Part shown: piece after piece, positions 16,796-51,634 of the stretch
Layout: each line of letters begins with the position of its first letter
How positions within the stretch are numbered: position 1 is the first letter of the stretch
Source of the DNA: Geomonas sp. RF6
GTDB lineage: Bacteria > Desulfobacterota > Desulfuromonadia > Geobacterales > Geobacteraceae
Length of the DNA stretch: 64,000 nucleotides
Assembly: GCF_021044625.1 (NCBI RefSeq)
Contig: NZ_CP087999.1
Location: forward strand, 4,113,001-4,177,000
Direction: 5' to 3'
Translations under genes and position numbers: made by a program
The notes under the pieces: model-generated
Seen by the model: the letters and a program-made list of their open reading frames with translations, nothing else
Database searches by the model: none
Told to the model about the DNA's origin: nothing

Positions 16796-16810
16796 CAGGC
16801 GAGGTACTAG

Positions 16811-18073: not shown

Positions 18074-18093
18074 CCCCTCCGCTAGCGGAGGGG
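18074..18093. repeat. Perfect 20-base palindrome upstream of pilC
   Basis: CCCCTCCGCTAGCGGAGGGG is a perfect inverted repeat in the 236-base gap between pilT and pilC; flanking CTG/CAG (18068-18070 / 18094-18096) extend it with a three-base bulge. No U-run follows, so it is not a standard terminator. It may be a dispersed palindromic repeat or an RNA stability hairpin that changes pilC levels relative to pilBT. The rest of the gap (17909-18144) shows only a weak GC hairpin near 17920 and the pilC ribosome binding site. Confidence 0.6.
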
Positions 18094-18144
18094 CAGGGGA
18101 GGGACGGGTGTTTCGTCTAGCCACCTTTTCAAGGAGAAAAGCTC

Positions 18145-19362
18145 ATGCCCAAGTTCAGTTGGGAAGCGAGAAGCAAGGCCGGTTCGGTGCAGAAGGGGGT
18201 CATGGAGGCCACCAACAGCGCGCAGGTCGAGGCTCAACTAAAGCGCTACGGCTTCACCGGCATTACCATCAAGGAAGAGGGGAAGGGGCTCGGGCGCGAG
18301 ATCAAGTTCGGCAGCGGCCAGAAGAAGATCCAGACGAAGGAGCTCGTCGTCTTTACGAGGCAGTTCGCCACCATGATCGACTCCGGCCTCCCGCTGGTGC
18401 AGTGCCTGGACATCCTCTCGGGACAGCAGGAAAACAAGACGTTCAAGGAGGTGCTCGTGAAGGTGAAGGAGAGCGTGGAGAGCGGCTCCACCTTCGCCGA
18501 CGCCCTCTCGAAGCATCCGAAGGCCTTCGACCAGCTCTACGTGAACCTGGTGGCGGCAGGGGAGGTCGGCGGTATCCTCGACACGATCCTGAATCGGCTC
18601 GCCGCCTACATCGAGAAGGCGATGAAGCTGAAGAAGCAGGTGAAGGGGGCGATGGTCTATCCGACCACCATCATGGCGATCGCGGTCATCGTCGTCGGCG
18701 TCATCCTCGTCTTCGTCATCCCGACCTTTGCAAAGATGTTCGCCGACTTCGGCGGGGACCTCCCCGCGCCGACGAAGTTCGTCATCGCCCTCTCCGGCTT
18801 CCTCACGAAGTACCTCGTCGTCATCATCGCAGCTCTCTTTGGGCTGAAGTTCGGCATCTCGAAGTACTACGCCACCCCTGCCGGGAAGAAGAACATCGAC
18901 CGCTTTGCCCTGAACGCGCCGATCGTCGGCCCCCTGGTGCGCAAGGTCGCGGTGGCGAAGTTCACGAGGACCCTCGGCACGATGATAAGCTCCGGCGTCC
19001 CGATCATGGACGGCCTCGACATCGTGGCGAGGACGGCCGGAAACAAGATCGTCGAGGAGGCGATCTACCGGGTGCGCCAGTCGATCTCCGAGGGGAAGAC
19101 GATCGCGGAGCCGCTGCAGGAGAGCGGGGTCTTCCCGCCGATGGTCGTGCAGATGATCGCAGTCGGCGAGGCGACCGGTGCCATGGACGCCATGCTGAAC
19201 AAGATCGCGGACTTCTACGATGATGAGGTCGACGATGCGGTGGGTGCCATGACCGCCATGATGGAGCCTCTTCTCATGGTCTTCCTCGGCACGACCGTGG
19301 GGGGGCTCGTCATCGCCATGTATCTCCCGATCTTCAAGCTGGCGAGCACGGTGGGCGGTTGA
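18145..19362 (+). CDS. pilC: Type IV pilus inner-membrane platform protein PilC
   Basis: Polytopic platform protein that couples PilB/PilT to pilin insertion. The 405 residues contain two T2SSF domains: residues about 65-190 (FTRQFATMIDSGLPLVQCL) and about 270-390 (KFTRTLGTMISSGVPIMDGL), each followed by hydrophobic helices (VVGVILVFVIPTF; PLLMVFLGTTVGGLVIAMYLPIF). AAGGAGAAAAGC precedes the ATG. It lies 3 bases before pilS. Confidence 0.97.
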   Translation: MPKFSWEARSKAGSVQKGVMEATNSAQVEAQLKRYGFTGITIKEEGKGLGREIKFGSGQKKIQTKELVVFTRQFATMIDSGLPLVQCLDILSGQQENKTFKEVLVKVKESVESGSTFADALSKHPKAFDQLYVNLVAAGEVGGILDTILNRLAAYIEKAMKLKKQVKGAMVYPTTIMAIAVIVVGVILVFVIPTFAKMFADFGGDLPAPTKFVIALSGFLTKYLVVIIAALFGLKFGISKYYATPAGKKNIDRFALNAPIVGPLVRKVAVAKFTRTLGTMISSGVPIMDGLDIVARTAGNKIVEEAIYRVRQSISEGKTIAEPLQESGVFPPMVVQMIAVGEATGAMDAMLNKIADFYDDEVDDAVGAMTAMMEPLLMVFLGTTVGGLVIAMYLPIFKLASTVGG

Positions 19363-37031: not shown

Positions 37032-37897
37032 CCGTGATGATCCACATCCTGCTCCCGGTACACAACCGTCGCGAGCTGACCCGGCGCTTCGTGGCCTGCC
37101 TCAAGGCGCAGAGTTATCGGAATTTCCGCCTGGTGCTCGTCGATGACGGCTCGGGGGACGGCACCGCCGCCATGGTGCGGGAGGAGATCCCGGAGGTCAC
37201 CGTGATCACCGGGAGCGGGTCGTGGTGGTGGGCCGGGTGCCTGCAGCAGGGGTGCAGATTCCTTGAGCGGCAGGGGGTCCCCGACTCCGATGTGGTGCTT
37301 TTCGCCAACGACGACACGGCTTTCGACCCGGACTTTCTGGAGCGCGCCGTGGCATTTCTTGCGGCACGGCCGCGCACCCTCCTTCTGGCGCACGCCTTCG
37401 ATGCGGCGACCGGGGTGCTGTGCGACCGGGGGGTGCGGATCGACTGGCCGCGGTTGCGTATCGAGAAGGTTTTCAGCGATGACGATATCGGCTGCTTCTC
37501 CACGCGGGGGCTCTTCATGCGCATGGGGGACGTGAGGGAGACGGGCGGGTTCTTCCCGAGACTGCTCCCCCATTACCTTTCCGACTACGAGTTCACCCTG
37601 CGCGCCAGGCGCCGCGGGGTGCGCCTGGCCACCACCCCGGAGGTGCGGCTCTTCCTGAACGTGGAGACGACCGGCCACCACGCGCTCGGCGCCGACTCCT
37701 TGAGAGAGTGCCTCGTCAAGTTCTGCTCCATGAAGTCGGCGGATAACCTCCTGTGCTGGACCAGTTTCATCGTGCTGGCGTGCCCCTCGCGCTGGATGCT
37801 GCGCAATATCGTGTGGCTGTGGGGGACTGCCCTCAGGAAAGTGGGGCGAGCCATGTCGCACTCATTTTTCTGGAAGACCCCGGGGACGAACCTATGA
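37028..37897 (+). CDS. GT2 glycosyltransferase
   Basis: GT-A enzyme of 289 residues: IHILLPVHNRRELTRRFVAC, LVDDGSGDGTAAMV, VLFANDDTAFDPDFL as DxD region and LSDYEFTLRARRRG as acceptor motif. The segment SGSWWWAGCLQQGC is typical of rhamnosyl/galactofuranosyl transferases related to GlfT/WbbL. The GTG at 37028 overlaps the previous stop and has GAGGA just upstream; an ATG at 37037 is possible. ATGA overlap with the next gene. Confidence 0.87.
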   Translation: MTVMIHILLPVHNRRELTRRFVACLKAQSYRNFRLVLVDDGSGDGTAAMVREEIPEVTVITGSGSWWWAGCLQQGCRFLERQGVPDSDVVLFANDDTAFDPDFLERAVAFLAARPRTLLLAHAFDAATGVLCDRGVRIDWPRLRIEKVFSDDDIGCFSTRGLFMRMGDVRETGGFFPRLLPHYLSDYEFTLRARRRGVRLATTPEVRLFLNVETTGHHALGADSLRECLVKFCSMKSADNLLCWTSFIVLACPSRWMLRNIVWLWGTALRKVGRAMSHSFFWKTPGTNL

Positions 37898-38790
37898 CCA
37901 CCGCACCGATCGTGCTCTTTGTGTACAACCGCCCCTGGCACACCCGCCAGACGGTGGAGGCCCTCGCAAGGAACCCCCTGGCTCCGGAATCCGATCTCCT
38001 TGTCTATTCCGATGCCGCAAGGACAGCGGCTGCCGCCGAGGCGGTGGGGGAGGTGCGCGCCTACCTGAAAACGATCCGCGGCTTCAGATCGGTGCAGGTA
38101 ACGGAACGGGAGGAGAACCTCGGGGTGGCGCGCTCGGTCATTGCGGGGGTGTCCGATGCCATCGGGAAATTCGGCGAGGCCATCGTCGTCGAGGACGACC
38201 TGGTGACTTCCCCCCACTTTCTGGGGTACATGAACGACGCCCTCCGGCTGTACCGCGACGTGGAGGAGGTCGTGAGCATTCACGGCTATCTCTACCCGGT
38301 GGCGCAGACGCTGCCGGAGTCCTTTTTCCTCAAAGGCGCGGACTGCTGGGGGTGGGCGACCTGGAAGCGGGGGTGGGACCTCTTCGAGCCGGACGGGAGA
38401 AAGCTGCAGGCCGCTCTCGCCGCCCGCAAGCTGGAGCGGCGCTTCGAATTCAACGGCACCTATCCGTACTGCCGCCTCCTGGAGGATCAGATCGCGGGGC
38501 GGAACGATTCCTGGGCCATCAGGTGGTACGCCAGCGCCCTCCTGCACGACAGGCTGACCCTCTACCCCGGGAGGTCGCTGGTGCACAATATCGGCAACGA
38601 CCTGAGCGGCACCCACTGCGACAACGTCCGTTGCTACGATACGGAGATGTCCAGCCGCCCCATCTCTCTGGCGCCCCTGCCGCCGGAGGAGGACCGCTTC
38701 GCTCTGCATGCCTTCGAGTGCTACTTCAGGAAAATCCGGCCGTCGCGTTGCCAAAGGCTCCTCGCCCGTCTGGCGGGAGTGTTCCGATGA
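37894..38790 (+). CDS. GNT-I-like sugar transferase
   Basis: GT-A protein of 298 residues: APIVLFVYNRPWHTRQTVEA, DLLVYSDAART, EENLGVARSVIAGVSDAI, and the metal site IVVEDDLVTSPHFLGYMNDAL resembling the EDD motif of GNT-I/POMGNT1-type N-acetylglucosaminyltransferases. A WGWATWKRGWDLFEPD segment follows, common to bacterial members in surface-polysaccharide loci. It overlaps both neighbours by ATGA. Confidence 0.82.
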   Translation: MTTAPIVLFVYNRPWHTRQTVEALARNPLAPESDLLVYSDAARTAAAAEAVGEVRAYLKTIRGFRSVQVTEREENLGVARSVIAGVSDAIGKFGEAIVVEDDLVTSPHFLGYMNDALRLYRDVEEVVSIHGYLYPVAQTLPESFFLKGADCWGWATWKRGWDLFEPDGRKLQAALAARKLERRFEFNGTYPYCRLLEDQIAGRNDSWAIRWYASALLHDRLTLYPGRSLVHNIGNDLSGTHCDNVRCYDTEMSSRPISLAPLPPEEDRFALHAFECYFRKIRPSRCQRLLARLAGVFR

Positions 38791-39620
38791 TGCACCGTGT
38801 CAGGAACCGGCTTTCCAGGTGGCTCCCCCCCGCCCTCGTCGACTGCCTCGCCCGCAGGAAAAGGGTGTATGGCTACTTCGGCGACTACTCCTGCTGGGAG
38901 GACGCCAGACGGGCCTCTGGCGGCTACGACTCCGGCCACATCCTGGAAAAGGTGTGCGCGTCACTGCTCAAGGTGAAGCAGGGGGTGGCGGTCTATGAGA
39001 GGGACTCGGTCCTTTTCGACGAGGTGCAGCACGCCTGGCCCCTGCTGGCGGGACTGCTGTGGATCGCCTCCCGGGAGGATCACCGGCTGAACCTGCTGGA
39101 CTTCGGCGGTTCTCTCGGGAGCAGCTACTATCAGTGCCGCGCCTTTCTGCAGCATCTCCCGCAGCTCAGGTGGAGCATCGTCGAACAGGAAGCGTTTGTC
39201 AGGCGCGGTAGGGAGCTCTTCGAGGACGAGGTGCTCAGATTCTACTACTCGCTGGATGAATGCATCTGCGACCGCAATCCCGACGTGGTCCTCCTTTCCA
39301 GCGTGCTGCCGTACCTCGAAAGCCCGCATCGCACCGTCAGCGACATCCTGAGCCGCGCCCCTTCCTACGTCGTAGTGGACAGGACCCCCTTCATCGAGGG
39401 GAGGGGGGACCGTCTCACCGTGCAGGTCGTGCCGCAGGAGATTTACGGGGGGAGCTATCCCGCGTGGATGCTCGGGGAGGACCCTTTCCTGGAGCTTTTC
39501 AGCGAAGCGTACGAGGTGATTGCGCGCTTTGACGCCCTGGGGGGGGAGATCGACCTGGGAGACGAGGTGGCGCGCTTCAAGGGCTTTCTCTTCGCGAAGC
39601 GGGGGAGCTCCAGGGGGTGA
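38787..39620 (+). CDS. TIGR04325-family putative methyltransferase
   Basis: Protein of 277 residues recognised by the family hallmarks YFGDYSCWEDARRASGGYD and AVYERDSVLFDEVQHAWPLL, then LNLLDFGGSLGSSYYQCRAF as a SAM-binding-like loop. The family (described from Leptospira LPS loci, LIC12133) is annotated as methyltransferase by fold; no reaction is known to me. Conserved GxxYPAW (GGSYPAWMLGEDPF) follows near the C-terminus. Overlaps the previous stop by ATGA and lies in a run of coupled glycan genes. Confidence 0.82.
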   Translation: MMHRVRNRLSRWLPPALVDCLARRKRVYGYFGDYSCWEDARRASGGYDSGHILEKVCASLLKVKQGVAVYERDSVLFDEVQHAWPLLAGLLWIASREDHRLNLLDFGGSLGSSYYQCRAFLQHLPQLRWSIVEQEAFVRRGRELFEDEVLRFYYSLDECICDRNPDVVLLSSVLPYLESPHRTVSDILSRAPSYVVVDRTPFIEGRGDRLTVQVVPQEIYGGSYPAWMLGEDPFLELFSEAYEVIARFDALGGEIDLGDEVARFKGFLFAKRGSSRG

Positions 39621-39715
39621 GAATGCGCGGCGTTGGAGTGGAGGACGAGGAACCGATGGGTGATCGATGGCAGGCCAGGGAGTGCGCCCCGGAGCAGGGT
39701 GCGGCAACGGTACCG

Positions 39716-40672
39716 ATGCGTAATTTCTGCACCCTTTTCGACGCGAACTATCTCACCCGGGGGGTGCTGATGCACCGCTCCCTCATGGAGGCCGGCGAGC
39801 CGTTCACCCTCTACGTGGTCTGTTTCGACCCCCTCTCCCTGCAAGTGCTGCAGCGCCTCGCCCTGCCGCATCTGGTGCCGATTGCGCTGGAGGAGTTCGA
39901 ATCCCCCCCTTTGCGGGAGGTGAAGAAGAGCCGCTCCAGGGCAGAGTACTGCTGGACCTGCGCGAGCCACGTGATCCGCTATGTGCTGGAGCGCTTCCGG
40001 CTGGAGGAGGTGACCTATCTCGACGCCGATCTCTTCTTCTACCGCCCCCCCTCCTCGGTGCTGGCTGAATACGACGCAACGGAGGGATCGGTACTGTTGA
40101 CCGAGCACCGCTTCGCCCCGCTCTTTGAAAGCCACCTGGAGTACGGGCGCTACTGCGTGCAGTTCGTCACCTTCAGAAACGACCGCAGGGGGAGGGAGGC
40201 GCTCGACTGGTGGTGTGAGCGCACCCTCGAGTGGTGCCACGACAGGCTGGAGGACGGGCGCTTCGGCGACCAGAAGTACCTGGACGACTGGCTGGAGCGC
40301 TTTGAGGGGGTGCGGGTAAGCTCGCATATCGGAGCGGGGGTGGCGAACTGGAACGTGCGGCAGTACCGGGTTGCCGGCAGCAGCGAGGCGCCCACGGTGG
40401 ACGGGGTTCCGGTCCTCTTTTTCCACTTCCACATGGTGAAGTTATTCGTGAGCGGCAGGATCGACCTTGGGTACCTGCCGCTGCCACGCGAGGCGGTGGA
40501 GATCCTGTATCTCCCGTACTTGAGACGGCTGGCGACCGTGGAACGGGAAGTCGCGCTCCTGTGCCCCGGTTTCGCCACGGCTCTCATGCCGGACCGCCAT
40601 CCGCTGGCACGCGCCATCAGCTACCTGTACAGGAAAGCAAAGGGGAATTACCATGTCGTTCGAGTCGTATAA
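39716..40672 (+). CDS. GT-A type glycosyltransferase, paralogue 2
   Basis: Protein of 318 residues, paralogous to the gene at 35073 from FCTLFDANYLTRGVLMHRSL onward; shared features include VTYLDADLFFYRPPSSVLAE (DxD metal site), FGDQKYLDDWLERFEGV and PVLFFHFHMVKLF. I chose the ATG at 39716 since it gives the same N-terminus and nearly the same length as the paralogue; ATG codons at 39623 and 39656 and a GTG at 39617 (overlapping the preceding stop) have better ribosome binding sites, so an extension of up to 33 residues is possible. Overlaps the following epimerase by 20 bases. Confidence 0.78.
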   Translation: MRNFCTLFDANYLTRGVLMHRSLMEAGEPFTLYVVCFDPLSLQVLQRLALPHLVPIALEEFESPPLREVKKSRSRAEYCWTCASHVIRYVLERFRLEEVTYLDADLFFYRPPSSVLAEYDATEGSVLLTEHRFAPLFESHLEYGRYCVQFVTFRNDRRGREALDWWCERTLEWCHDRLEDGRFGDQKYLDDWLERFEGVRVSSHIGAGVANWNVRQYRVAGSSEAPTVDGVPVLFFHFHMVKLFVSGRIDLGYLPLPREAVEILYLPYLRRLATVEREVALLCPGFATALMPDRHPLARAISYLYRKAKGNYHVVRVV

Positions 40673-41639
40673 GGGAAAGAAGGTGCTGATCACCGGCGGT
40701 CTCGGTTTTATCGGGAGCTCTCTCGCGCTGCGCCTGGTAGGACTGGGGGCGCGGGTGACGGTCATCGACTCCCTTATTCCCCAGTACGGCGGGAACCTCT
40801 TCAACGTGGAGCCGGTGAAGGATCTCCTGAGGGTCAATATCTCCGACGTCCGGGATCGCAGCAGCATCAATTACCTCGTGCAGGGACAGGACTTCCTCTT
40901 CAACCTGGCGGGGACGCTGAGTCATATCGACTCCATGCGCGACCCGTTCACCGACCTGGAGATCAACTGCGTGAGCCAGTTGAGGATACTGGAGGCGTGC
41001 CGGGAGAACAATCCGGGGGTAAAGATCGTCTTCGCCGGCACCCGCGGTCAATTCGGCCGCGCCACCTACCTCCCGGTGGACGAGGAGCACCCCCTGCGCC
41101 CCACCGACGTGAACGGCATCAACAACATTGCGGGGGAGCAGTACCATCTCCTGTACAGCGAGGTGTACGGCATCAGGGCCTGTTCCCTGAGGCTCACCAA
41201 CACCTACGGCCCCAGGCACCAGATGAGGCACGCGCGGCAGGGGGTGCTGAACTGGTTCGTGCGCCAGGTGATCGAGGGAGAGAAGATCCGCATCTACGGC
41301 GACGGCTCCCAGATCCGCGACACGAACTACATAGAAGACGTGGTGGAGGCGCTCCTCCTCGCCATGATCACCCCCGAGACCGACGGCCAGGTGTACAACC
41401 TGGGGGGGGAGCCGCTCTCCCTGGTGAACTTCGTGGAACAGCTGATCACCCTGAACGGCTCCGGCGCCTACGAGCTGGTGGCATATCCCCAGGATCTGAA
41501 GCCGATCGAGATCGGCGACTACATCGCCTCCCACGACAAGTTTTCCCGCTGCACCGGATGGCACCCCCGGGTCCCCCTCGTGGACGGCCTGCAATGCACC
41601 CTCGATTACTACCGCAAGAACCGGCACGAGTACTGGTGA
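40653..41639 (+). CDS. Extended-SDR NAD-dependent sugar epimerase/dehydratase with unusual active site
   Basis: Protein of 328 residues of the GalE-like extended SDR fold. GGLGFIGSS (15-23) is the NAD loop and [15 protein letters not shown] the substrate region. The usual YxxxK catalytic pair is replaced: the segment that should hold it reads [14 protein letters not shown]. Related sequences that I recall carry NGINK here, so the Tyr is absent in the group and the Lys is additionally Asn in this copy. It could use another base or be a weakened or binding-only protein. It is followed directly by a decayed aminotransferase gene, suggesting it once formed a step in an amino-sugar pathway. Confidence 0.85.
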
Positions 41640-41853: not shown

Positions 41854-43521
41854 GTGCAGATCGTCATTCCAATGTCAGGCTTCGGCGAGCGTTTTCGCCG
41901 CGCGGGGTACACCGAGCCGAAACCGCTTATAGAAATCGACGGGAAACCGATCATCGCGCACGTCGTGGAGATGTTCCCCGGCGAATCCGACTTCCTCTTC
42001 ATCTGCAACGAGGATCATCTCCGGCACCCCGACTACCGGATGGAGGAGACGCTCCGTCTCCATGCCCCCTCCGGACGCATTGCCGGCATCCCCCCCCACA
42101 AGCTCGGTCCGGTCCACGCAGTACGGCAGGTCGAGCACCTGATCGATCCCGATCGCCCCGTGCTGATAAACTACTGCGACTTTACCTGCTACTGGGACTG
42201 GGATCACTTCCGCTCCTTCGTCGCCCGGACCGCCTGTGCCGGGGCGATACCCGCCTACCGGGGCTTTCACCCTCATTCCCTCGGGAGTACCAACTACGCC
42301 TACCTGCGCGAAGAGGGGGGGTGGGTTTCCGACATCCGCGAAAAGGAGCCCTTTACCTGCGACCGCATGCAGGAGTTCGCCTCCAGCGGTACCTACTACT
42401 TTGCCTCGGGAAGGCTCATGAGCGACGCGCTGCGCGCCGCCGTGGAGCAGGGGTGGCAGGTAGGGGGGGAGTACTACGTGAGCCTCGCCTACAGGCATCT
42501 CTTCGCGCACGATCTTCCGGTGGCGGTGTACCCCCTGCAGCACTTCATGCAGTGGGGGACCCCGGAGGATGTCGCCGAATACCGGGGGTGGTCCGCGGCT
42601 TTCCGGGATTTGGCGGCGGAAAAGGTGCCGTCCCTGCCGGCAGGGACGCTGGTGGTTCCGATGGCGGGGCTGGGGGAGCGCTTTGCGCAGGAAGGGTACC
42701 CCGTTCCTAAGCCGCTCATCCCCGTTTCCGGTGAGCCGATGGTGGTGCAGGCCACCCGTGACCTCCCCGTCGCTGCAAACCACGTCTTCGTCGTGCGAAG
42801 CGACATGCCGGGGCACCGTGAGATCTCCCGCACGCTCGCCGACACCTATCCGGGCGCCGTCATAGAGACCCTCCCCGGCGTAACTGAAGGGCAGGCGTGC
42901 ACAGCTCTGGCCGGGCTCGAGGCGCTGGAGCGCGCGCTGGGGGAGGTGCCCGGTCCCGTCACCTTCGGCGCCTGCGACAACGGCGTCCTCTACGACCCGG
43001 AGCGTTTGAGGCGCCTCCTCGACGACCCCGAAACGGACGTCGTCGTCTGGGGCGCGCGTGGCCACGCAAACGCCGTGCGCCGCCCCGAGATGTTCGGCTG
43101 GATCGACGCCGAAAGAGGAGCGATTCGCGGGATCTCCGTGAAAAAGCCGCTCGGTGACCCCGCAACGGACCCCATCGTTATCGGCACCTTCACCTTCCGC
43201 AGCGCCGCGGATTTCCGCCGGGTGGTGCAGCGCCTGATGAGCCGGGAGGGCCGGGTGAACGGCGAGTTCTACCTCGACTCGTGCATCAACGACGCCCTCC
43301 AGCTCGGGTTGACCTGCCGTCTCTTCGAGGTGGACGGCTATCTGTCGTGGGGGACTCCGAACGACCTGAAAAGCTTCGAGTACTGGCAGTCCTGTTTCCA
43401 CAAGTGGTCCGGCCACAGCTACCTGATGGAGCTCGACGGACGCATCCCTCCGGAGGCGCTTTCCTCCCTTACGCTGCGCTATCAGGCCCTCGTCCCCGAA
43501 GTGCCGCTCCCGCGGATGTGA
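41854..43521 (+). CDS. Tandem nucleotidyltransferase: two NTP_transferase domains in one chain
   Basis: Protein of 555 residues made of two homologous sugar-phosphate nucleotidyltransferase-like domains. Domain 1 (about 1-245) begins IVIPMSGFGERFRRAGYTEP with K23 and has INYCDF (105-110) and QWGTPEDV (233-240). Domain 2 (about 264-520) begins LVVPMAGLGERFAQEGYPVP with K286 and has FGACDNGVLY (371-380) and SWGTPNDL (498-505). The G-x-G-x-R-F and PKPL motifs are intact in both, so each may bind nucleotide. The family usually has one such domain. It may activate one sugar or polyol phosphate twice, two different ones, or one domain may be regulatory. GTG start with AGAGGG upstream; GT2 and GDPD-like genes follow. 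Confidence 0.85.
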   Translation: MQIVIPMSGFGERFRRAGYTEPKPLIEIDGKPIIAHVVEMFPGESDFLFICNEDHLRHPDYRMEETLRLHAPSGRIAGIPPHKLGPVHAVRQVEHLIDPDRPVLINYCDFTCYWDWDHFRSFVARTACAGAIPAYRGFHPHSLGSTNYAYLREEGGWVSDIREKEPFTCDRMQEFASSGTYYFASGRLMSDALRAAVEQGWQVGGEYYVSLAYRHLFAHDLPVAVYPLQHFMQWGTPEDVAEYRGWSAAFRDLAAEKVPSLPAGTLVVPMAGLGERFAQEGYPVPKPLIPVSGEPMVVQATRDLPVAANHVFVVRSDMPGHREISRTLADTYPGAVIETLPGVTEGQACTALAGLEALERALGEVPGPVTFGACDNGVLYDPERLRRLLDDPETDVVVWGARGHANAVRRPEMFGWIDAERGAIRGISVKKPLGDPATDPIVIGTFTFRSAADFRRVVQRLMSREGRVNGEFYLDSCINDALQLGLTCRLFEVDGYLSWGTPNDLKSFEYWQSCFHKWSGHSYLMELDGRIPPEALSSLTLRYQALVPEVPLPRM

Positions 43522-43525
43522 CACC

Positions 43526-44224
43526 GTGCGGCTATCCCTGATCATCCCCTGTTATAACGAGGCCGCGAACCTCCCTCTCCTCCTTGAGCGCTGCGGCGAG
43601 GTGAGCCGCGTCCCCGGGGTGGAGGTCATCGTGGTGGACAACGGCTCCACCGACGAAAGCGCTGCCATCCTTCGGGACCTGCTCCCCCGTTACCCCGGCT
43701 GCCGCAGCGTCACGGTGGAGGTGAATCAGGGGTACGGCAAGGGGATACTCGCCGGGCTCGAGGATGCCAGAGGGGAGATCCTCGCCTGGACCCATGCCGA
43801 CCTGCAGACCGATCCTCTGGACGCGCTGCGCGGACTGGAGCTTTTCGACGGCGAGGCCCCGAACCTTCTGGTAAAGGGACGCCGCCACGGCCGCCCCTTG
43901 GGGGATACCTTCTTCACCGTCGGGATGAGCCTCTTCGAGACCGCCCTTCTGGGGAAGAGGATGTGGGACATCAATGCCCAGCCCACCATGTTCCCGCGCG
44001 CCTTCTTCCTCACTTGGCAGGAGCCGCCGCACGACTTCTCCCTCGATCTCTACGCCTACCACCAGGCGCTTTGCCAGCAAATGGCGGTGCGCCGTTTTCC
44101 GGTACGCTTCGGGGAGCGGGCCCACGGCGTCTCCCACTGGAACGTGAGCTGGAGCGCCAGGCGCAAATTCATCCGCAGGACAGTCTCTTTCAGCCTGCAG
44201 CTAAAAAAGAGGCTCAAACGATGA
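43526..44224 (+). CDS. GT2 glycosyltransferase (polyprenyl-phosphate sugar synthase-like)
   Basis: GT-A enzyme of 232 residues: LSLIIPCYNEAANLPLLLER, VVDNGSTDES, QGYGKGILAGLEDARGE and WTHADLQTDPLDAL. The N-Q-G-Y-G-K-G motif and the D-x-Q-x-D site are typical of DPM1/polyprenyl-phosphate glycosyltransferases, but the C-terminal membrane anchors are missing. It may load a sugar onto a lipid carrier for the membrane GT-C proteins encoded nearby. GTG start, four bases after the preceding gene; overlaps the next by ATGA. Confidence 0.87.
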   Translation: MRLSLIIPCYNEAANLPLLLERCGEVSRVPGVEVIVVDNGSTDESAAILRDLLPRYPGCRSVTVEVNQGYGKGILAGLEDARGEILAWTHADLQTDPLDALRGLELFDGEAPNLLVKGRRHGRPLGDTFFTVGMSLFETALLGKRMWDINAQPTMFPRAFFLTWQEPPHDFSLDLYAYHQALCQQMAVRRFPVRFGERAHGVSHWNVSWSARRKFIRRTVSFSLQLKKRLKR

Positions 44225-44820
44225 AAATTATCCGGCACCGTCTGAACACCATGGCAGAGCTGAAGGCGACCCCCGCCTGCTACGGCGTGGAGGTGGACAT
44301 CCGCAGCCGCGGGGACGAGCTCATCATCCACCACGACCCCTTCGCCTCCGGGGAGCCTTTCGAGGAGTGGCTCGGCGCCTACAGGCACGGGACCCTCATC
44401 CTCAACGTGAAGGAGGAAGGACTGGAAGGGCGCCTCCTCGAGCTCCTCGAGTCGCGCGGCATGGAGGACTACTTCCTTCTCGATCAGTCCTTCCCCTTCC
44501 TCCTGAAATGGGCCCCGGCGCTGAAGGGGCGCTGCGCGGTACGGGTGTCGGAGTTCGAATCGGTGGAAACCGCGCTCGCCCTGGCCGGCAAGGCACGCTG
44601 GGTCTGGGTCGACTGCTTCAGCACTTTTCCCCTCTCCGGTGCGGATGCCTGCCGGCTGAAGGATGCAGGGTTCCGGCTCTGTCTCGTCTCCCCCGAGCTC
44701 CAGGGGCGCGACCCCGACACCGAGGTACCCGAGCTGGTCCGGCTCCTGGGGAGGCGGGGGATCGAAGCGGACGCGGTGTGCACGAAGCGCCCCGATCTCT
44801 GGGAAAGGGTGGCGCAGTGA
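44221..44820 (+). CDS. Small GDPD/PI-PLC-like TIM-barrel protein
   Basis: Protein of 199 residues resembling a shortened glycerophosphodiester phosphodiesterase barrel: H6-R7 (IIRHRLN), then GVEVDIRSRGDELIIHHDP with E24, D26 and H38 in the spacing of the GDPD metal/catalytic residues, and LILNVKEEGLE for the next strand. There is no signal peptide, so it should act in the cytoplasm, unlike most glycerol-phosphodiesterases that degrade lipids outside. Linked by ATGA overlap to a GT2 gene and next to a kinase fusion, it may cleave or form a phosphodiester intermediate of the glycan pathway. Function is inferred by fold only. Confidence 0.7.
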   Translation: MKIIRHRLNTMAELKATPACYGVEVDIRSRGDELIIHHDPFASGEPFEEWLGAYRHGTLILNVKEEGLEGRLLELLESRGMEDYFLLDQSFPFLLKWAPALKGRCAVRVSEFESVETALALAGKARWVWVDCFSTFPLSGADACRLKDAGFRLCLVSPELQGRDPDTEVPELVRLLGRRGIEADAVCTKRPDLWERVAQ

Positions 44821-44821
44821 C

Positions 44822-46867
44822 GTGAAGAAGCTGCCGCTGCATCTCCTTTTTCTGCTCGGTCTGGCGATCCGCCTCGCCCTCATCTTTACCAGCGTCTCCT
44901 CGGCCGTAACAGACTGGTTCGTCCCCTTTCTCGACGCCACGACGGAGCGCTTCACGCTGGACCCGTGGTCCCTCTGGATGCACGGCGGGGGGACGGGGCT
45001 CGCCTTCCCCTACGGCTACGCCATGTGGTTTCTTTTCCTGCCGCTGACCGTTGCGGCAAAGGTCCTCGGGATCCCCCTGCAGTACGCCTACGGCTTCACG
45101 CTCCTTGCCGGCGACTGCGCCCTCCTGTCCGTGCTGCGCCGCCTGCTCCCCGGGCGGGACCGGCTGCTCCTCGGGGCCTACTGGCTCTCCCCCATCGTGA
45201 TCCTCGCAAGCTACGGGCTCGGATTCAACGACGTGCTCCCGGCGCTCCTTCTGGTCCTCGCGCTGTACTTCACCCGAGAGCTCCGCCTGCAAAGCGCGGG
45301 GGCCGCCTGCATCGCCGCCGTTTCCGCAAAGCTGAGCATGGCGCTGGCGGTCCCTTTCTTCGTCATCTATCTGTACAACAACCGGGCGCTGAGGCAGCTG
45401 TTGCCGCGCTTTGTCAGGGGGGCGCTCCTCGCCGCGGCGGTGCTCGTCCTCCCTTTTCTCTTTTCCGACAGCGGGTGGCGGATGGTCTTTGGCAACCGGG
45501 AGATCGGCAGGGTCTACAGCCTGGCCCTCGATGTCGGCGCGGACACCCGCATCTACCTCGTTCCCCTGATCTACCTGGTGATGCTGTACCTTGTCTGGCG
45601 GGTACGACGCCTCAACTACGAGCTTTTTCACGCCACCCTCGGCATGGTATTTCTCCTGGTGGTCCTCATGACCCCGGCGGCACCGGGGTGGTTCATCTGG
45701 GCGCTGCCGTGGCTCGTATCGTACCAGGCGATGAGCGGGACGACGGGGATAGCCCTGGCGGGAGTCTTTTCCGGGCTCTATCTGCTGAGCACCCTCCTTA
45801 CCACCCCCTTGCATCTCATGGGGTGGGGGACGCTCGACCTGCTGGGCGCTTTCCGACTGAGCGCGGGGGAGGGGAGTCATGCCGCCTCCCTTCTGCACAC
45901 CGTCATGGTGGCGAGCGGCGTCATCCTGACCCTGCGCATCTGGCGTGAAGGGGTCACCCGCAACGACTACTTCAGGCTGAGCCGCAAGCCGTTTGTCGTC
46001 GGGGTGGCCGGCGACTCAGGGGCCGGGAAGGATACCTTTTGCGACGCGCTCGCCGCCCTTTTCGGCAGTCACTCCGTCGCCACCGTCTCCGGGGACGATT
46101 ATCACCTGTGGGACAGGCAGAAGCCGATGTGGCAGGTCATGACCCATCTGAATCCGAAGGCGAACGACCTGGAGGGGTTTGTGAATGCGGTGGTGGCCCT
46201 CACCGACGGCAGGAGCATTCAGTCCCGGCACTACGACCACGGCTCCGGCAAGATGAGCAGGCCCTTCACGGTAAAAAGCAACGACTTCATCATCGCCAGC
46301 GGCCTGCACGCCCTCTACCTGCCGATGCTGCGCGACCGCTACGACCTGAGCATCTTTCTCGACATCGACGAGGGACTGCGCCGTCACTTCAAGGTGGTGC
46401 GCGACGTCGAGCAAAGGGGGCACAGCACCGCCGCTGTCCTCCAGTCGTTCGAGCGCAGGGAGCCGGATGCGGCGCGCTTCATCCGCCCCCAGGCGGAGCA
46501 CGCCGACCTGATACTCTCTCTCCAGCCGGCCCATGAGGGGCTCCTGGAGCACCCCGGCGAAAAGCCCCTCACTTTCAAGCTCGTGGCGCGCTCGCGTCTG
46601 GGGATGGACGATCTGCTTCTGAGAAGGGTGCTGGTTGGGGTCTGCGGGCTCCACGTGGAAATCGCGGAGGGGGAGGGGGGCGTAGCTGTCCTTTCCGTCC
46701 AGGATGACGCCTCCTCGGAGGATATCGCCCTGGCTGCCCGCCTGCTTTGCCCCTCGATCCTCGAGTTCCTGGACATAGAGCCGGGATGGGAGGGGGGCGC
46801 ACTCGGTCTCATGCAGCTGGTCACCCTCACCCACATAAACCAGGCACTGACCAGGAGGTTCGTCTAG
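44822..46867 (+). CDS. Fusion of a GT-C membrane protein and a phosphoribulokinase/uridine-kinase domain
   Basis: Protein of 681 residues from a GTG start. Residues 1-370 form about ten transmembrane helices of GT-C type (DWFVPFLDATTERFTLDPW loop after helix 1, FNDVLPALLLVLALYF, TPAAPGWFIWALPW). Residues 390-600 are a P-loop kinase of the PRK/uridine-kinase family: Walker A GDSGAGKDT (397-405), SGDDYHLWDR (423-432), THLNPKANDL (441-450) and the HYDHGSG (470-476) motif of that family; the last 80 residues are unassigned. The join is in frame with no stop or repeat. A cytoplasmic kinase tethered to a membrane sugar transferase suggests coupled phosphorylation and transfer. I know no characterised protein with this architecture. 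Next gene overlaps by one base. Confidence 0.85.
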   Translation: MKKLPLHLLFLLGLAIRLALIFTSVSSAVTDWFVPFLDATTERFTLDPWSLWMHGGGTGLAFPYGYAMWFLFLPLTVAAKVLGIPLQYAYGFTLLAGDCALLSVLRRLLPGRDRLLLGAYWLSPIVILASYGLGFNDVLPALLLVLALYFTRELRLQSAGAACIAAVSAKLSMALAVPFFVIYLYNNRALRQLLPRFVRGALLAAAVLVLPFLFSDSGWRMVFGNREIGRVYSLALDVGADTRIYLVPLIYLVMLYLVWRVRRLNYELFHATLGMVFLLVVLMTPAAPGWFIWALPWLVSYQAMSGTTGIALAGVFSGLYLLSTLLTTPLHLMGWGTLDLLGAFRLSAGEGSHAASLLHTVMVASGVILTLRIWREGVTRNDYFRLSRKPFVVGVAGDSGAGKDTFCDALAALFGSHSVATVSGDDYHLWDRQKPMWQVMTHLNPKANDLEGFVNAVVALTDGRSIQSRHYDHGSGKMSRPFTVKSNDFIIASGLHALYLPMLRDRYDLSIFLDIDEGLRRHFKVVRDVEQRGHSTAAVLQSFERREPDAARFIRPQAEHADLILSLQPAHEGLLEHPGEKPLTFKLVARSRLGMDDLLLRRVLVGVCGLHVEIAEGEGGVAVLSVQDDASSEDIALAARLLCPSILEFLDIEPGWEGGALGLMQLVTLTHINQALTRRFV

Positions 46868-47616
46868 TGAAAATCCTCAATCCCGGCCGCCTCACCCGTC
46901 TCCCCGACGCCATCATCTTCGACACGGACAACACGCTCTACCCGTACGACCCCGCTCATGCGGCGGCGCAGCAGGCGCTGAAGGAAAAGGTGGTGCGCAC
47001 CTTCTCCATCGGGGAGGCGCAGTTCGACCGGGCATTCAGCGAGGCGCGCCAGCAGGTGAAGGCGGGACTGAAGAACACTGCATCCTCGCACAGCCGCCTC
47101 CTCTACGTGCAGCGCATGCTGGAGATCATGGGGCTCGGCTCGCAGGTGCTCCATGCCCTCGACTTCGAGCAGACGTACTGGCGGAGCTTTCTGAACCACG
47201 CCGTCCTTTTTCCTGAGGTGCGGGAGTTACTCGACGACATCCGGCTGCTGGGGATCCCCACCGCCATCGTCACCGATCTCACCGCCCAGATTCAGTTCCG
47301 CAAGGTGGTCTACTTTGGCCTCGATCATCATTTCGACTACATCGTCACCAGTGAGGAGGCGGGATACGACAAGCCGCACGAGGCGCCTTTCCGGCTGGCC
47401 CTGCAGAAGATCCGCCCGAAGGGGGAGTGCATCTGGATGATCGGCGACAACCCGGTGAACGACATCCGCGGCGGCCGTGAGCACATCAATGCGGTGACCC
47501 TGCAAAAACTCCATCCCGGAGCTGAACTGGGGAGAGGTGAAGACGCGCCTGATGCCGCTTTCGAGGAGTTTGCCGCGCTGAGGCGTCTCGTCGCCCGTCT
47601 GCAGGACGCACGGTGA
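46867..47616 (+). CDS. HAD-family hydrolase
   Basis: Cytoplasmic phosphatase-like protein of 249 residues with motif I FDTDNTLYPYD (D19, D21), a helical cap, motif II in TAIVTDLTA, the lysine KPHEAPF and motif IV MIGDNPVNDIRGGRE. All HAD catalytic residues seem present. GTG start overlapping the preceding stop (TAGTG) and GTGA overlap with the aldolase gene imply it acts in the same pathway, perhaps removing phosphate from the aldol product. Confidence 0.85.
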   Translation: MKILNPGRLTRLPDAIIFDTDNTLYPYDPAHAAAQQALKEKVVRTFSIGEAQFDRAFSEARQQVKAGLKNTASSHSRLLYVQRMLEIMGLGSQVLHALDFEQTYWRSFLNHAVLFPEVRELLDDIRLLGIPTAIVTDLTAQIQFRKVVYFGLDHHFDYIVTSEEAGYDKPHEAPFRLALQKIRPKGECIWMIGDNPVNDIRGGREHINAVTLQKLHPGAELGRGEDAPDAAFEEFAALRRLVARLQDAR

Positions 47617-48665
47617 AGGGGGATGCCGTGAGGGAATCGATCGTCCGCTACTGCTCGCGACTCGGGGGGGATCCTCTGCTCGTGCAGGGCGCCGGGGGGA
47701 ACGTCTCCTGGAAGGAAGGCGACACCCTGTGGGTGAAGGCTTCCGGTACCTGGCTGGCGCATGCCGGGCAGGAAGAGATCTTCGTGCCGGTAGACCTCGT
47801 GCATCTGCGGGGAGCATTGAGCCTCGGCGATTTCTCGGTGCGCCCCAGGGTGCGCGGGGAATCCTCCCTGAGGCCATCGATCGAGACGCTACTGCACGCC
47901 CTGATGCCGCAGCGCGTGGTCGTGCATCTGCACCCTGTGGAAGTCGTGGCCCGTCTTGTGCGCAGCACCTGCGGCGCTGAACTCGAGGACCTTTTCGGCT
48001 CTTCCCTTCCCTGGACACTCGTGGGGTACCACAAACCGGGAGCCGCGCTGGCTGCGGCGGTACGCGCTGCGCTTGTCGAAGTCCCGGGGGCAGCGGTGGT
48101 ATTTCTGAGGAATCACGGTCTGGTGGTCGGTGGAAAGGATGTGGAAGAGGTCGATGCTCTCCTGGAGGTGATTATCTCCACGGTGACCGGTACCTGCGCC
48201 GCTCTTGCCGGTGCGGCACACGGAGATACGGAAGGTAAAATGCCGGAGCCGCTGCTGGCGCCGGACGGCAGGTGCTACCTTCCTGTCGACGGCGCCGGGA
48301 TCCAGAACCTGTCACATCCCCTTTTCTTTGACCGGCTGGAGCGCGACTGGGCGCTCTGCCCCGACCATGTGGTTTTTCTTGGAGGGCGTCCCGCCTGCTA
48401 CCCGTCGCTCGATGACGTCCTTGAAGACATCGAGAGGGGAAATGACTCCGAACTCTTCTTTGTGAAAGGGGAGGGGGTCTACTCGGCGCCCACTCTGAGC
48501 GCGGCGCAGCGGGTTCAGCTCCAGTGCTTTTACGATGTGCTGGCGCGCCAGTCACCCGATTCCCCTCTGCACACGCTCGACTGCTACCAGGTTGCGGAGC
48601 TGCTCGCGTGGGATGCAGAGCGTTACAGGCAGCAGCTTGCCAGGGGGGAAGGGGGCACGGTGTGA
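47613..48665 (+). CDS. Class II aldolase/adducin-family protein with C-terminal extension
   Basis: Protein of 350 residues. The N-terminal class II aldolase domain (about 1-215) has VQGAGGNVSWK, E91, the zinc histidines H105 and H107 (VVHLHPVEV) and H168 (RNHGLVV), as in fuculose/rhamnulose-phosphate aldolases. The C-terminal part (about 235-345, with CPDHVVFLGG and FFVKGEGVY) resembles the middle portion of RhaD-like bifunctional proteins, so it is longer than the 215-residue simple aldolases. It may form a C-C bond between dihydroxyacetone phosphate and an aldehyde, or act as a lyase. Coupled to the HAD gene. Confidence 0.83.
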   Translation: MKGDAVRESIVRYCSRLGGDPLLVQGAGGNVSWKEGDTLWVKASGTWLAHAGQEEIFVPVDLVHLRGALSLGDFSVRPRVRGESSLRPSIETLLHALMPQRVVVHLHPVEVVARLVRSTCGAELEDLFGSSLPWTLVGYHKPGAALAAAVRAALVEVPGAAVVFLRNHGLVVGGKDVEEVDALLEVIISTVTGTCAALAGAAHGDTEGKMPEPLLAPDGRCYLPVDGAGIQNLSHPLFFDRLERDWALCPDHVVFLGGRPACYPSLDDVLEDIERGNDSELFFVKGEGVYSAPTLSAAQRVQLQCFYDVLARQSPDSPLHTLDCYQVAELLAWDAERYRQQLARGEGGTV

Positions 48666-48682: not shown

Positions 48683-50428
48683 ATGACAAACCTGTCCCTC
48701 TCCAGAAAAGATACCGTCTGGCTCCTTCTTGTGGCGACGCTGGTCCTCTTCTACCTCGTCGTGGCGGGGGCGGCCAATGCCGATCTGACGGTGGGGCGCT
48801 TCGCGCTCTTCATGGACGAGCGGATCACCTTCGACGGCGTCAAGAATATCCTGCATCCCGCCGGCTGGTCCCATTTCCTCTGGAGCATCGCCGACGGCGG
48901 CGACCATCGTTACGGGCGGTCGCTGTGGAACTCCATGGCGCTCTTCTGCGCGTTGCCGGAGTACTTCTTCGGGGAGCCGGGGCAGATCTTCGCAGGGAGA
49001 ATGAGCGGCGTCGTCATCCTTCTTTCCGCCTTCCTCGTCCTCACCTTCACCTTTGTGAAGCGGTGGTATCTGCGTTTTCTGCTCATGGCATCCCTTCTGG
49101 CGATGCCGTATGCCGATTACTACATGAGCATGCCGAAACCGGAGCCACTCCAGATGCTTTTCATCGCCATCTTCCTGTACTTCTTCAGGAAGGAGGAGAT
49201 GAGCTTCAGGGGGAGCTACTGGATATTTCTCGGCCTCGCTTTCGGCACGAAGATCTCCGCCCTGCCGTTGGTCGGGGTCTTCGGGGCGGCCGCCATCATC
49301 AAGGGCTTCTCCCGGCGCGGTCTGGATCAATCTGTCTGTGAGCTCCTGCGTGCGGCGGGCTTTTTCCTTGCCGGGCTTGCCCTCGCTGTCCCCATTTTGC
49401 TAAAACCGGTGGCGATCTCCCTGCTCCTTTTCTGCCTCTTTGACACGCTTGTTACCAGGAAGCTCCGCATCCCCCAATCTGCTGCCAACGTCACCATGGC
49501 CGCCCTCCTCATCGCCGGCAACGGTCTCGCCGCATGGTGGTCCATCTACCTGGGGGAGGGGTCGGGCCTGGCGGTTTGGGTAGGGAACACCTTCCTGAAC
49601 ACCGGTCATGGCAGTGACCTCCGCAGCATCGGCTTTGGGAGCTGGGTCGACTTCTTCGTCCACGACTGGATGGTCGCGCCGGCTGCGCTCACCGCGCTTC
49701 TCCTGGCGATCGTCCTGGCGCTCCTTGCTTGCTTCGGTATAAGGCAGGTGCAAAAGAGTGGGGTGCCGGAAGGGGCGGCTGACGCGGTTCCCGCCCTCGT
49801 TTTGCTGAGCGGTCTCGCGCTGGTGCTCGCTATTTTCAGCGGGGTGCACCGGCTTTGGGGGTTTTACCTTTTTCCCGGCACCATATTGGCGCTCGTCGGC
49901 CTCTTCGGCCTGGTGGAGATACACCTCCCGGAAAAGGGATGCTGTCCCGGGAGGGAGGACCGCAGCGCAGGGAGATATCTTTCTCTTTCCGCACTGGCAC
50001 TGGTTGCCGTCATCACCGTCTGCTGGTGGTTTCCGCTCAGCATCCAGAAGTACCGGCAGCTGGCCAGACGGACCGCCGCTCCCCAGTACCGGGACGATTA
50101 CCTGTCGTATCTGAAGCTCACAGATTTTTTGGCTGGTTACGCGGACGGGAAAAAGGGGGCGGTGTCCGTTTCCTTTGACCCGTCCCTGTTCATTCCTGTA
50201 AGCTGCCCGAAATACAAGATTACGGAGTTCTGGGGGGAGGGGCCTCACTGGGGGGAGGGGGTGGACGTCGTTGTGGTCGCCAAAGACAACGCACCTTGCA
50301 GCGTGGTTCCGAATGGCTCCCCCGGGTCTGCGCCCACCCTCGCGGAGGGCTCAGAGTATGACAAACGGTACGAGCGCCGACTGAGATTGCCAAATGGCGG
50401 CGAGGTTTTCGTGGCACGAGGCGAATGA
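48683..50428 (+). CDS. Large GT-C-like integral membrane protein
   Basis: Membrane protein of 581 residues with about eleven helices, unrecognised at the level of a named family. The loop after helix 1 has ALFMDERITFDGVKNILHP, an acidic D-E-R motif typical of ArnT/PMT-type GT-C enzymes; later parts include FAGRMSGVVILLSAFLVL and a C-terminal periplasmic tail (from about 515). It might add a sugar or other group to a lipid-linked acceptor or exported protein. GGGAG precedes the ATG. It begins 17 bases after the aldolase gene. Confidence 0.7.
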   Translation: MTNLSLSRKDTVWLLLVATLVLFYLVVAGAANADLTVGRFALFMDERITFDGVKNILHPAGWSHFLWSIADGGDHRYGRSLWNSMALFCALPEYFFGEPGQIFAGRMSGVVILLSAFLVLTFTFVKRWYLRFLLMASLLAMPYADYYMSMPKPEPLQMLFIAIFLYFFRKEEMSFRGSYWIFLGLAFGTKISALPLVGVFGAAAIIKGFSRRGLDQSVCELLRAAGFFLAGLALAVPILLKPVAISLLLFCLFDTLVTRKLRIPQSAANVTMAALLIAGNGLAAWWSIYLGEGSGLAVWVGNTFLNTGHGSDLRSIGFGSWVDFFVHDWMVAPAALTALLLAIVLALLACFGIRQVQKSGVPEGAADAVPALVLLSGLALVLAIFSGVHRLWGFYLFPGTILALVGLFGLVEIHLPEKGCCPGREDRSAGRYLSLSALALVAVITVCWWFPLSIQKYRQLARRTAAPQYRDDYLSYLKLTDFLAGYADGKKGAVSVSFDPSLFIPVSCPKYKITEFWGEGPHWGEGVDVVVVAKDNAPCSVVPNGSPGSAPTLAEGSEYDKRYERRLRLPNGGEVFVARGE

Positions 50429-50521
50429 TCAAAGGATGCTGCGGTCGGCTGATGCGATGCAGGGGCGTCTTGAAGCACGACAAGGGTGCGTAGCGGTGGC
50501 GGGGGAGGGGTACTGGCGGGG

Positions 50522-51634
50522 ATGAAGATCAAGCTTATCAAGCTGGTGGACAGAGTGGCAGGGAAGGGGGCTACCATGTGCCTCCCTCCTCCGGCACAGC
50601 GGCCGGTACCTTCTCCACGCTCCATCCTGGTCATCCGCCCCGGCGGGATCGGGGACGCTGTGCTCCTCCTCCCCGCACTGAGGGCGCTGCAGCGCGCTTT
50701 TCCTGCCTGTCGCATAGATGTCCTTGCCGAGAGACGCAATGCCGGTGCTTTCCGTTTCATCTCCGGCCTCGGCTCGGTTCGCTGCTACGATTCGGCGCGG
50801 GGGCTCGGCGAGGTGCTGCGCTGTCGCTACGACGTGGTGATCGATACCGAGCAGTGGTATCACCTCTCCGCCGTGGTGGCGAGGCTGACCCGCGCGCCGG
50901 TCCTCATCGGCTTTGGCACCAACGAGAGGCGGCGGCTCTTTACTCATTCGGTGCCGTATCCGCGGGAATTCTACGAAGCCGACGCCTTCTTCAGGCTGCT
51001 TGAGCCGCTCGGCATCACGGCGCCGCCCCTGATCGAGACCCCCTTCGTGGAGCTTTCCGACTCCGACCGGCAGGAGGGGGCGCGCCTCCTGGCGCAACTG
51101 GGAGACAGGCGCTACATCACGCTCTTCCCCGGTGCCAGCGCCCCCGAGAAGCTCTGGAATGGTGAACGGTTCCGGGAGGTGGTCTCGCTGCTGAACCGGA
51201 GGGGGGTCGCGGTGGTGCTGCTCGGCGGGAAGGACACCGTGGCGGCAGCGGAGGCGGTCGCGCGGGGAACCGGGGCGCTCAACCTGGCGGGAGCGACCTC
51301 TCTCGCCGTCAGTGCCGCGGTCATAGAAGGAGGGGAGGGGCTGATCAGCGGCGACTCCGGGCTCCTGCACATCGCGGCAGGACTCGGCAAGCCGACCGCT
51401 GCCCTCTTCGGCCCGAGCGATCCGCGCAAGTGGGCGCCGCGCGGCGAGTCGCACATCGTGGTGGCGAAGGATCTTCAGTGCGCCCCCTGCTCCTCCTTCG
51501 GCACGATCCCACGCTGCACGGCGAAGGAAAAATGCATGGAGCAGATCTCGGTGGGGGATTTCCTGGAACGGATGGCGGGGCATCCTCTGTGGGGTGCGGC
51601 GCTCGGCACAAGACGTGACAGCGGCGAAGAATGA
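50522..51634 (+). CDS. GT9-family glycosyltransferase (heptosyltransferase-like)
   Basis: Soluble GT-B enzyme of 370 residues resembling LPS heptosyltransferases: ILVIRPGGIGDAVLLLPALR near 35-55, DVVIDTEQWYHLSA, TLFPGASAPEKLWNGERFRE and the C-terminal donor-site GDSGLLHIAAGLGKPTAALFG. Four cysteines near the C-terminus (CAPC, CTAKEKC) may bind zinc, as in related GT9 proteins. The ATG at 50522 is used. It is the last plus-strand gene before the minus-strand DUF6056 gene, which converges on it across 33 bases. Confidence 0.88.
   Translation: MKIKLIKLVDRVAGKGATMCLPPPAQRPVPSPRSILVIRPGGIGDAVLLLPALRALQRAFPACRIDVLAERRNAGAFRFISGLGSVRCYDSARGLGEVLRCRYDVVIDTEQWYHLSAVVARLTRAPVLIGFGTNERRRLFTHSVPYPREFYEADAFFRLLEPLGITAPPLIETPFVELSDSDRQEGARLLAQLGDRRYITLFPGASAPEKLWNGERFREVVSLLNRRGVAVVLLGGKDTVAAAEAVARGTGALNLAGATSLAVSAAVIEGGEGLISGDSGLLHIAAGLGKPTAALFGPSDPRKWAPRGESHIVVAKDLQCAPCSSFGTIPRCTAKEKCMEQISVGDFLERMAGHPLWGAALGTRRDSGEE

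Follow-up and report, generated by a model that had tools for sequence, protein, structure and literature searches.

A GT-C membrane enzyme joined to a phosphoribulokinase-family kinase in a mobile, putative surface-glycan modification cassette

The fusion gene and its distribution

The window, i.e., the whole stretch of 64,000 nucleotides analysed here, contains a row of forward-strand genes, one of which codes for a GT-C membrane enzyme joined in frame to a kinase of the phosphoribulokinase (PRK) family. The features are listed below. Fractions in the list refer to 68 loci of at least 17 kb (long loci).

41854..43521, forward strand: tandem nucleotidyltransferase, 555 aa, two NTP_transf domains (PF12804 and PF00483; 64/68 long loci)
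43526..44224, forward strand: GT2 glycosyltransferase, 232 aa, candidate polyprenyl-phosphate sugar synthase (PF00535, E 5e-23; 64/68)
44221..44820, forward strand: short cytosolic GDPD-type phosphodiesterase, 199 aa (AlphaFold2 pLDDT 94; 65/68)
44822..46867, forward strand: GT-C-PRK fusion protein, open frame of 681 aa (AlphaFold2 model; 49-member full-length alignment)
44822..45976, forward strand: GT-C domain of the fusion, residues 1-385, about 11-12 membrane helices (fold match, Pfam matches of homologues, conservation)
45983..46864, forward strand: PRK-family kinase domain of the fusion, residues 388-681, with GDSGAGKDT, DDYH, YDH, SGLH and KxxRD motifs (PF00485, fold)
46867..47616, forward strand: HAD phosphatase with a GTG start (PF00702, NF053830; 68/68)
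47613..48665, forward strand: class II aldolase family protein, 350 aa (PF00596, E 4e-18; 64/68)
48683..50428, forward strand: membrane protein with about 9 membrane segments that occupies the variable last slot; candidate for a GT-C transferase specific for the acceptor (position conserved, sequence not)

The fusion frame opens with a GTG immediately 3' of the stop of the GDPD gene and runs for 681 codons with no internal stops. A longer alternative frame, starting at ATG 44663, runs over part of the preceding gene, and the alignment of homologues begins at the GTG. The preliminary description of this DNA had proposed an in-frame fusion of GT-C and PRK domains, to be checked by a Pfam domain search and by structure prediction of the full chain, and both analyses bear the proposal out. 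PF00485 was detected at residues 392-569 (E 1.7e-36; 126 bits, cut-off 22); this is the only Pfam match of the window protein, which has no match to Pfam glycosyltransferase families. The AlphaFold2 model, generated from a full-length alignment of 49 sequences (the window protein and its homologues), has a mean pLDDT of 90.2 and a pTM of 0.87, and features two complete predicted enzyme folds, GT-C at residues 1-385 and PRK at residues 388-681, as revealed by VIA-align. The gene thus genuinely joins a GT-C membrane enzyme to a PRK-family kinase.

Full-length homologues of the fusion (34-67% identity) are found in at least eight phyla, as well as in plasmids and viral contigs. Named carriers belong to Pseudomonadota, Acidobacteriota, Nitrospirota, Planctomycetota, Bdellovibrionota, Thermodesulfobacteriota, Actinomycetota and Chloroflexota, several of them being metagenome bins, in which contigs may be misplaced. 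Counting in each case the genome on which the sample was centred, full-length homologues occur in 4/297 genomes of the same phylum as the window, in 4/369 genomes of the class sample of Pseudomonas piscis and in 3/289 genomes of the class sample of Skermanella. All full-length matches to the GT-C half in the 955 sampled genomes are fused frames of 680-770 residues, and a stand-alone GT-C half was not found among these genomes. One candidate for an unfused copy of the kinase (genome G298) was rejected, since it resembles ordinary uridine kinases and has the motifs GKT and EGL. Because full-length matches, always fused, span eight or more phyla, the architecture is conserved, and no accident. 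A lack of homologues with this architecture had been named as part of what would refute the preliminary proposal; dozens of full-length homologues were found instead.

Fold and active-site conservation of the two halves

The modelled GT-C half matches GPI mannosyltransferase I (9wno; Z 26.3 over 350 residues), ALG3 (9s6r; Z 25.4) and ALG6 (6snh; Z 25.2), these matches spanning 329-359 residues. PimE and ArnT are also matched by the model (Z 18-19). The predicted fold is closest to enzymes that use polyprenyl-phosphate-linked sugars. In addition, Pfam ALG3 is matched by 16 of the 49 homologues, and GT87 by 11. The preliminary assignment of residues 1-370 to a GT-C region agrees with these results, the fold matches covering residues 1-385. 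W49, Asp137, Lys170 and the Gly289-Trp290 pair are invariant in the 49-member alignment. The acidic position in the first extracytoplasmic loop, located by alignment and not by superposition on a solved active site, is Asp47 in 45/49 sequences and Asn in the other four. Four Arg/Lys residues are found in the interval 380-390, after the last helix, and these positive charges fit a cytosolic location of the kinase.

The modelled kinase half matches 9qkp (Z 29.1 over 284 residues, 2.8 A), corresponding to the whole PRK fold including the C-terminal domain, and the M. hungatei PRK 5b3f (Z 27.1); matches to cyanobacterial and archaeal PRKs have Z scores of 27-29 over 276-284 residues. The kinase had been placed at residues 390-600. 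A PRK domain is indeed found there, as are the DDYHLWD, THLNP and HYDHGSG motifs, but the fold extends from residue 388 to the C-terminus. Among NCBIfam profiles, the kinase half scores 194.6 bits with phosphoribulokinase PRK07429 (NF005655), under the cut-off of 236. A housekeeping uridine kinase was rejected on profile scores (83 bits, versus 195 for the PRK profile).

In the PRKs of M. hungatei and R. sphaeroides, the phosphate of ribulose 5-phosphate (Ru5P), or more broadly Ru5P/ATP, is bound by His55, Arg59, Tyr98, His100, Lys151 and Arg154 in M. hungatei numbering (PMC5241800). The equivalent residues of the fusion are His428, Arg432, Tyr471, His473, Lys524 and Arg527. All are kept in 49/49 homologues except Lys524, which is kept in 48/49, and Asp425 and Asp528 are likewise invariant in the alignment.

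The metal site differs. Walker A had been described as intact, but it reads GKD instead of GK[S/T], the residue after the P-loop Lys (Asp404) being Asp in 44/49 homologues, Asn in two, Ser in two and Thr in one. Moreover, the position of the Walker B Glu of PRKs (EGLHP) is occupied by Ser493, which is Ser in 45/49 homologues and Glu in none. Canonical PRKs and uridine kinases in the same alignment, from which a few misaligned control rows were left out, keep both GK[S/T] and Glu or Asp. Asp404 may take over the metal-ligand role of the lost Glu, in which case this half of the fusion would probably be active as a phosphosugar kinase, its metal site having been rebuilt.

A role as a Calvin-cycle PRK was rejected. 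No RuBisCO match was found in the window genome, which excludes a role in carbon fixation there. Among 15 other carriers checked, 11 have no RuBisCO match, and in one more the sole match lies below the threshold; both carriers in which RuBisCO is strongly matched have a separate PRK besides.

Composition, variation and mobility of the cassette

The preliminary description overlooked the surrounding cassette, which accounts for the fusion better than the fusion gene taken by itself. The typical gene order is tandem nucleotidyltransferase, often GtrA, GT2, GDPD, GT-C-PRK, HAD, class II aldolase and a variable membrane protein. GtrA is present in 51 of the 68 long loci; it is missing in 17, and was not found in the window. 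Signature residues are conserved in both nucleotidyltransferase domains. The GT2 protein, putatively a polyprenyl-phosphate sugar synthase, is encoded beside a GT-C enzyme, an arrangement by which gtr clusters are recognised. The GT2 protein of the window carries HADLQTDP where dolichol-phosphate-mannose synthases have DADLQ; its His is conserved in the cassette family and may reflect an unusual donor.

Sequence searches did not assign the protein encoded at 44221-44820 to the GDPD family. Its identity was confirmed by the predicted fold, the AlphaFold2 model matching GDPD structures (best E 8e-8), and the catalytic-type residues H6, R7, E24, D26 and H38 are conserved in all members. In the 369-genome sample, the four genomes with the fusion are also those with GDPD, apart from one additional genome with a distant GDPD homologue, so that the cassette genes travel as a unit. 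A single sampled genome has a GDPD homologue (30%) without a fusion (locus L131; G319:C81:33000-51500, positions 4340-18379). This locus also holds a GT2 gene (32%) and separate single-domain nucleotidyltransferases, and by eye its neighbours resemble a PRPP-based arabinofuranose set, comprising a HAD-UbiA protein, a DprE1-like oxidase (GLGRSYGDSS), a DprE2-like reductase and a GT-C protein.

The GTG of the HAD gene shares one base with the fusion gene's stop codon. The best NCBIfam match of the HAD protein is ribulose-1,5-bisphosphate (RuBP) 5-phosphatase (NF053830), matched by 24/24 homologues scanned, with a score of 169.6 that lies below the curated cut-off of 330. D20, D22, T24, K170 and D195 (numbered from position 46864) are conserved in all members. 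Conservation in all members also extends to the zinc ligands H105, H107 and H168 and to Glu91 of the aldolase. The aldolase scores 25.1 bits with ribulose 1-phosphate (Ru1P) aldolase (NF053831; cut-off 300), and RhaD-type domains are nearer. Of the four long loci devoid of an adjoining aldolase gene, two belong to genomes with an aldolase elsewhere.

The most divergent cassette (L132, genome G826, positions 8310-14042) resides in an AT-rich genome of 1.0 Mb. It has no adjoining HAD gene and a shortened aldolase frame, and keeps the GKD of Walker A.

The last slot is conserved in position and variable in sequence. A long frame following the aldolase encodes a polytopic membrane protein of 430-750 residues in 30/31 loci having such a frame, and the last-slot proteins of 32 loci, window included, form 14 homology groups. 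A Pfam search with the membrane protein encoded at 48683-50428 gave no match. In gtr seroconversion clusters, a conserved donor-making core is similarly followed by an interchangeable membrane transferase, the variable Gtr (PMC11127046). By analogy with this layout, the GT-C half of the fusion may catalyse a step common to all cassettes, and the last-slot protein may set the acceptor.

In the window, the cassette is flanked by glycosyltransferase-like frames, a NAD-dependent epimerase/dehydratase gene and a GT9 heptosyltransferase-like gene (37753-41639 and 50486-51634), making the window a larger polysaccharide locus.

Several copies reside on mobile elements. A prophage copy was identified in an IMG/VR contig (L022) and in the matching stretch of Pseudomonas sp. 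Choline-02u-1 (L074), where the cassette lies between a CI-like repressor gene and tail-fibre/baseplate genes. In this tailed-phage prophage, the cassette adjoins a gene for a 665-aa protein weakly matching a phage glucosyltransferase moron family. Among 5426 complete E. coli genomes, the cassette is present in two, in both cases on a plasmid, one of which is an IncR plasmid with IS26 nearby. The complete eight-gene cassette is 100% identical in two small E. coli plasmids (L018 and record NZ_JCAPUP010000005.1), their sources being a human stool isolate and a bullfrog isolate. Pseudomonas piscis (G299) features two cassette copies, on scaffolds C11 and C17 (L032 and L047), with identical match scores. 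The gene tree requires 20 changes of taxonomic class, compared with a mean of 22.5 for shuffled labels, and is hence nearly as mixed as shuffled trees. Prophage and plasmid carriage, the occurrence of two copies and the class-mixed tree are in keeping with horizontal spread and with a function in cell-surface variation.

Proposed function and comparison with known systems

The interpretation that best accounts for these data is that the fusion protein lies at the centre of a mobile cassette for surface-glycan modification, which extends the gtr type (GtrA-GtrB-Gtr) of seroconversion system. We estimate the probability of this reading at about one half. Fusion, folds, active-site conservation, cassette and mobility are the observations on which it is based; from these we infer the catalytic steps, their order and the identity of the sugar.

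In the proposed route, the cytosolic PRK-type domain would phosphorylate a sugar phosphate, for which a pentose 5-phosphate is the likeliest candidate, and from the resulting bisphosphate the HAD enzyme would strip the other phosphate to yield a sugar 1-phosphate. One domain of the tandem nucleotidyltransferase would then form the NDP-sugar, the sugar of which would be transferred by the GT2 enzyme to polyprenyl phosphate. The GtrA-type flippase, where present, would turn the polyprenyl-linked sugar outward. In the periplasm, its transfer to a surface polysaccharide would be the task of the GT-C domain and/or the variable GT-C-like last protein. Of the remaining enzymes, the class II aldolase would probably provide the sugar phosphate or epimerise it. 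The GDPD would probably remove a phosphodiester side product, for example a cyclic sugar phosphate.

The row of kinase, phosphatase and nucleotidyltransferase genes matches the logic of NDP-heptose synthesis, in which a kinase makes a bisphosphate, the HAD phosphatase GmhB trims it to the 1-phosphate and a nucleotidyltransferase activates the product; hence the proposed order of bisphosphate, 1-phosphate and NDP-sugar. A pentose is the likeliest activated sugar. A difficulty is that PRK phosphorylates C1 of an open-chain ketose, which is a non-anomeric position, so that a ketose 1-phosphate would not directly give a normal glycosyl donor. Either the substrate of the kinase is an aldose phosphate or the product is used otherwise, for instance via the aldolase as in haloarchaea. 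We tentatively suggest that the PRK-family kinase and the RuBP-phosphatase-like HAD generate a sugar 1-phosphate via a pentose bisphosphate, and that the nucleotidyltransferase and the DPM1-like GT2 enzyme convert it to lipid-linked pentofuranose or ketose donors. This would be a previously undescribed route, with its kinase tied to a GT-C enzyme. Also counting against the overall interpretation are the altered metal site of the kinase, the gaps in GtrA occurrence, the divergent cassette without an adjoining HAD gene and the scores of HAD and aldolase below family cut-offs.

Kinase, phosphatase and aldolase could alternatively constitute a small carbon route, leading from Ru5P via RuBP and Ru1P to DHAP and glycolaldehyde, a product of which feeds the glycan enzymes. 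The best matches of kinase and HAD to phosphoribulokinase and RuBP 5-phosphatase are those expected of such a route, as is a class II aldolase third gene with a weak match (25 bits) to Ru1P aldolase, and the phosphatase-aldolase pair recurs in the non-carboxylating pentose bisphosphate pathway of haloarchaea, which comprises RuBP phosphatase and Ru1P aldolase (PMC9700705). The aldolase, however, is nearer to RhaD-type domains and is the least tightly linked gene of the cassette, being absent from two carrier genomes (G281 and G297), and a degradative role leaves both the GT-C fusion and the two nucleotidyltransferase domains unexplained. We therefore regard this route as unlikely.

The loss of the Walker B Glu from all 49 sequences and the replacement of the P-loop Ser/Thr mostly by Asp, at positions that canonical relatives conserve, would also suit a PRK domain of impaired catalysis serving as a sensor or scaffold, with bound phosphosugar or ATP, to gate the GT-C enzyme. 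Yet no change is seen across eight phyla in the remaining catalytic and substrate residues, Asp425 and Asp528 among them, and the kinase travels with the HAD phosphatase in all but the most divergent cassette. Some active kinases, moreover, have a GKD P-loop, T4 deoxynucleotide kinase and animal phosphomevalonate kinase being examples. A sensor or scaffold role appears improbable on these grounds.

The preliminary description had also envisaged that the kinase product is used at the membrane or that the kinase charges a lipid or polyol acceptor. The former idea is supported in that the kinase product probably enters a membrane glycan pathway. Charging of an acceptor at the membrane, e.g., a polyprenol or alditol then used by the GT-C domain, would accord with the covalent link of the kinase to an enzyme resembling those that use polyprenyl-linked sugars, and members of the PRK family phosphorylate varied hydroxyls. 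Nevertheless, the residues that bind a pre-existing substrate phosphate, i.e., the Ru5P-phosphate ligands, are conserved, the best full-length fold and profile matches are phosphoribulokinases rather than lipid or polyol kinases, and the adjoining gene for a RuBP-5-phosphatase-like HAD implies a bisphosphate product. These features point to a soluble sugar phosphate as the probable substrate of the kinase and to a sugar bisphosphate as its product, and make acceptor charging very improbable.

Chance read-through or an assembly join of two neighbouring genes, suggested by nothing beyond the unusual domain combination, was rejected, given that the same fused architecture is conserved, without internal stops, in every one of dozens of full-length matches from independent genomes, plasmids and viral contigs.

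If the cassette interpretation holds, it reveals a new way of activating unusual sugars for surface polysaccharides, and a use of PRK chemistry outside the Calvin cycle and carbon fixation, in an enzyme whose metal site is altered and whose genes phages and plasmids disseminate. The fusion would also be a marker predicting a surface sugar in Pseudomonas, Lysobacter, Azospirillum and Legionella relatives, among others. Annotation pipelines name the fusion "uridine kinase" or "phosphoribulokinase", hiding a mobile glycan cassette present in at least eight phyla. A search of the open-access literature found, under the terms used, no paper describing the fusion or the cassette, and papers on xylulose- and ribose-bearing O-antigens yielded no gene set like it. 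Three homologues weakly match NF046093 (AZOBR_p60025 family), for which the literature search found no paper. There is a real chance that the sugar-activation route of the cassette is new.

The two halves of the fusion have different relatives. With GT-C enzymes that use polyprenyl-phosphate sugars (GPI mannosyltransferase I, ALG3, ALG6, PimE and ArnT), it shares the predicted fold over 280-360 residues of the N-terminal half, but identity is just 10-15%, and the fusion bears a cytosolic kinase. With class II PRKs of cyanobacteria and archaea (6hzk, 5b3f and 9qkp), it has in common the entire predicted fold and all residues binding the Ru5P phosphate. Unlike these enzymes, the fusion kinase sits behind a GT-C membrane domain, features a GKD Walker A and Ser in place of the Walker B Glu, and scores below the PRK07429 cut-off, in a genome without RuBisCO.

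At the pathway level, the cassette resembles NDP-heptose synthesis in the order of its logic, from sugar phosphate through bisphosphate and 1-phosphate to NDP-sugar. In contrast to that pathway, the kinase belongs to the PRK family and is fused to GT-C, and the HAD is of a different subfamily. As in the haloarchaeal pathway (PMC9700705), a HAD nearest to RuBP 5-phosphatase is paired with a class II aldolase, although in the cassette both score far under the family cut-offs and are located among glycan genes. Further parallels are the three-component gtr systems that modify O-antigens and, as the nearest described system, the three-component system for pentofuranoses (Kelly 2024, PMC11127046). 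Common to these and the cassette are a GT2 polyprenyl-phosphate sugar synthase, often a GtrA flippase, a GT-C transferase, a variable last transferase and carriage by phages and plasmids; to this set the cassette adds a kinase, a phosphatase, an aldolase, a phosphodiesterase and a double nucleotidyltransferase. The pentofuranose system adds pentofuranoses starting from PRPP with a UbiA-type enzyme (PMC11127046), whereas entry into the cassette pathway is through a DPM1-like GT2 enzyme, which should need an NDP-sugar.
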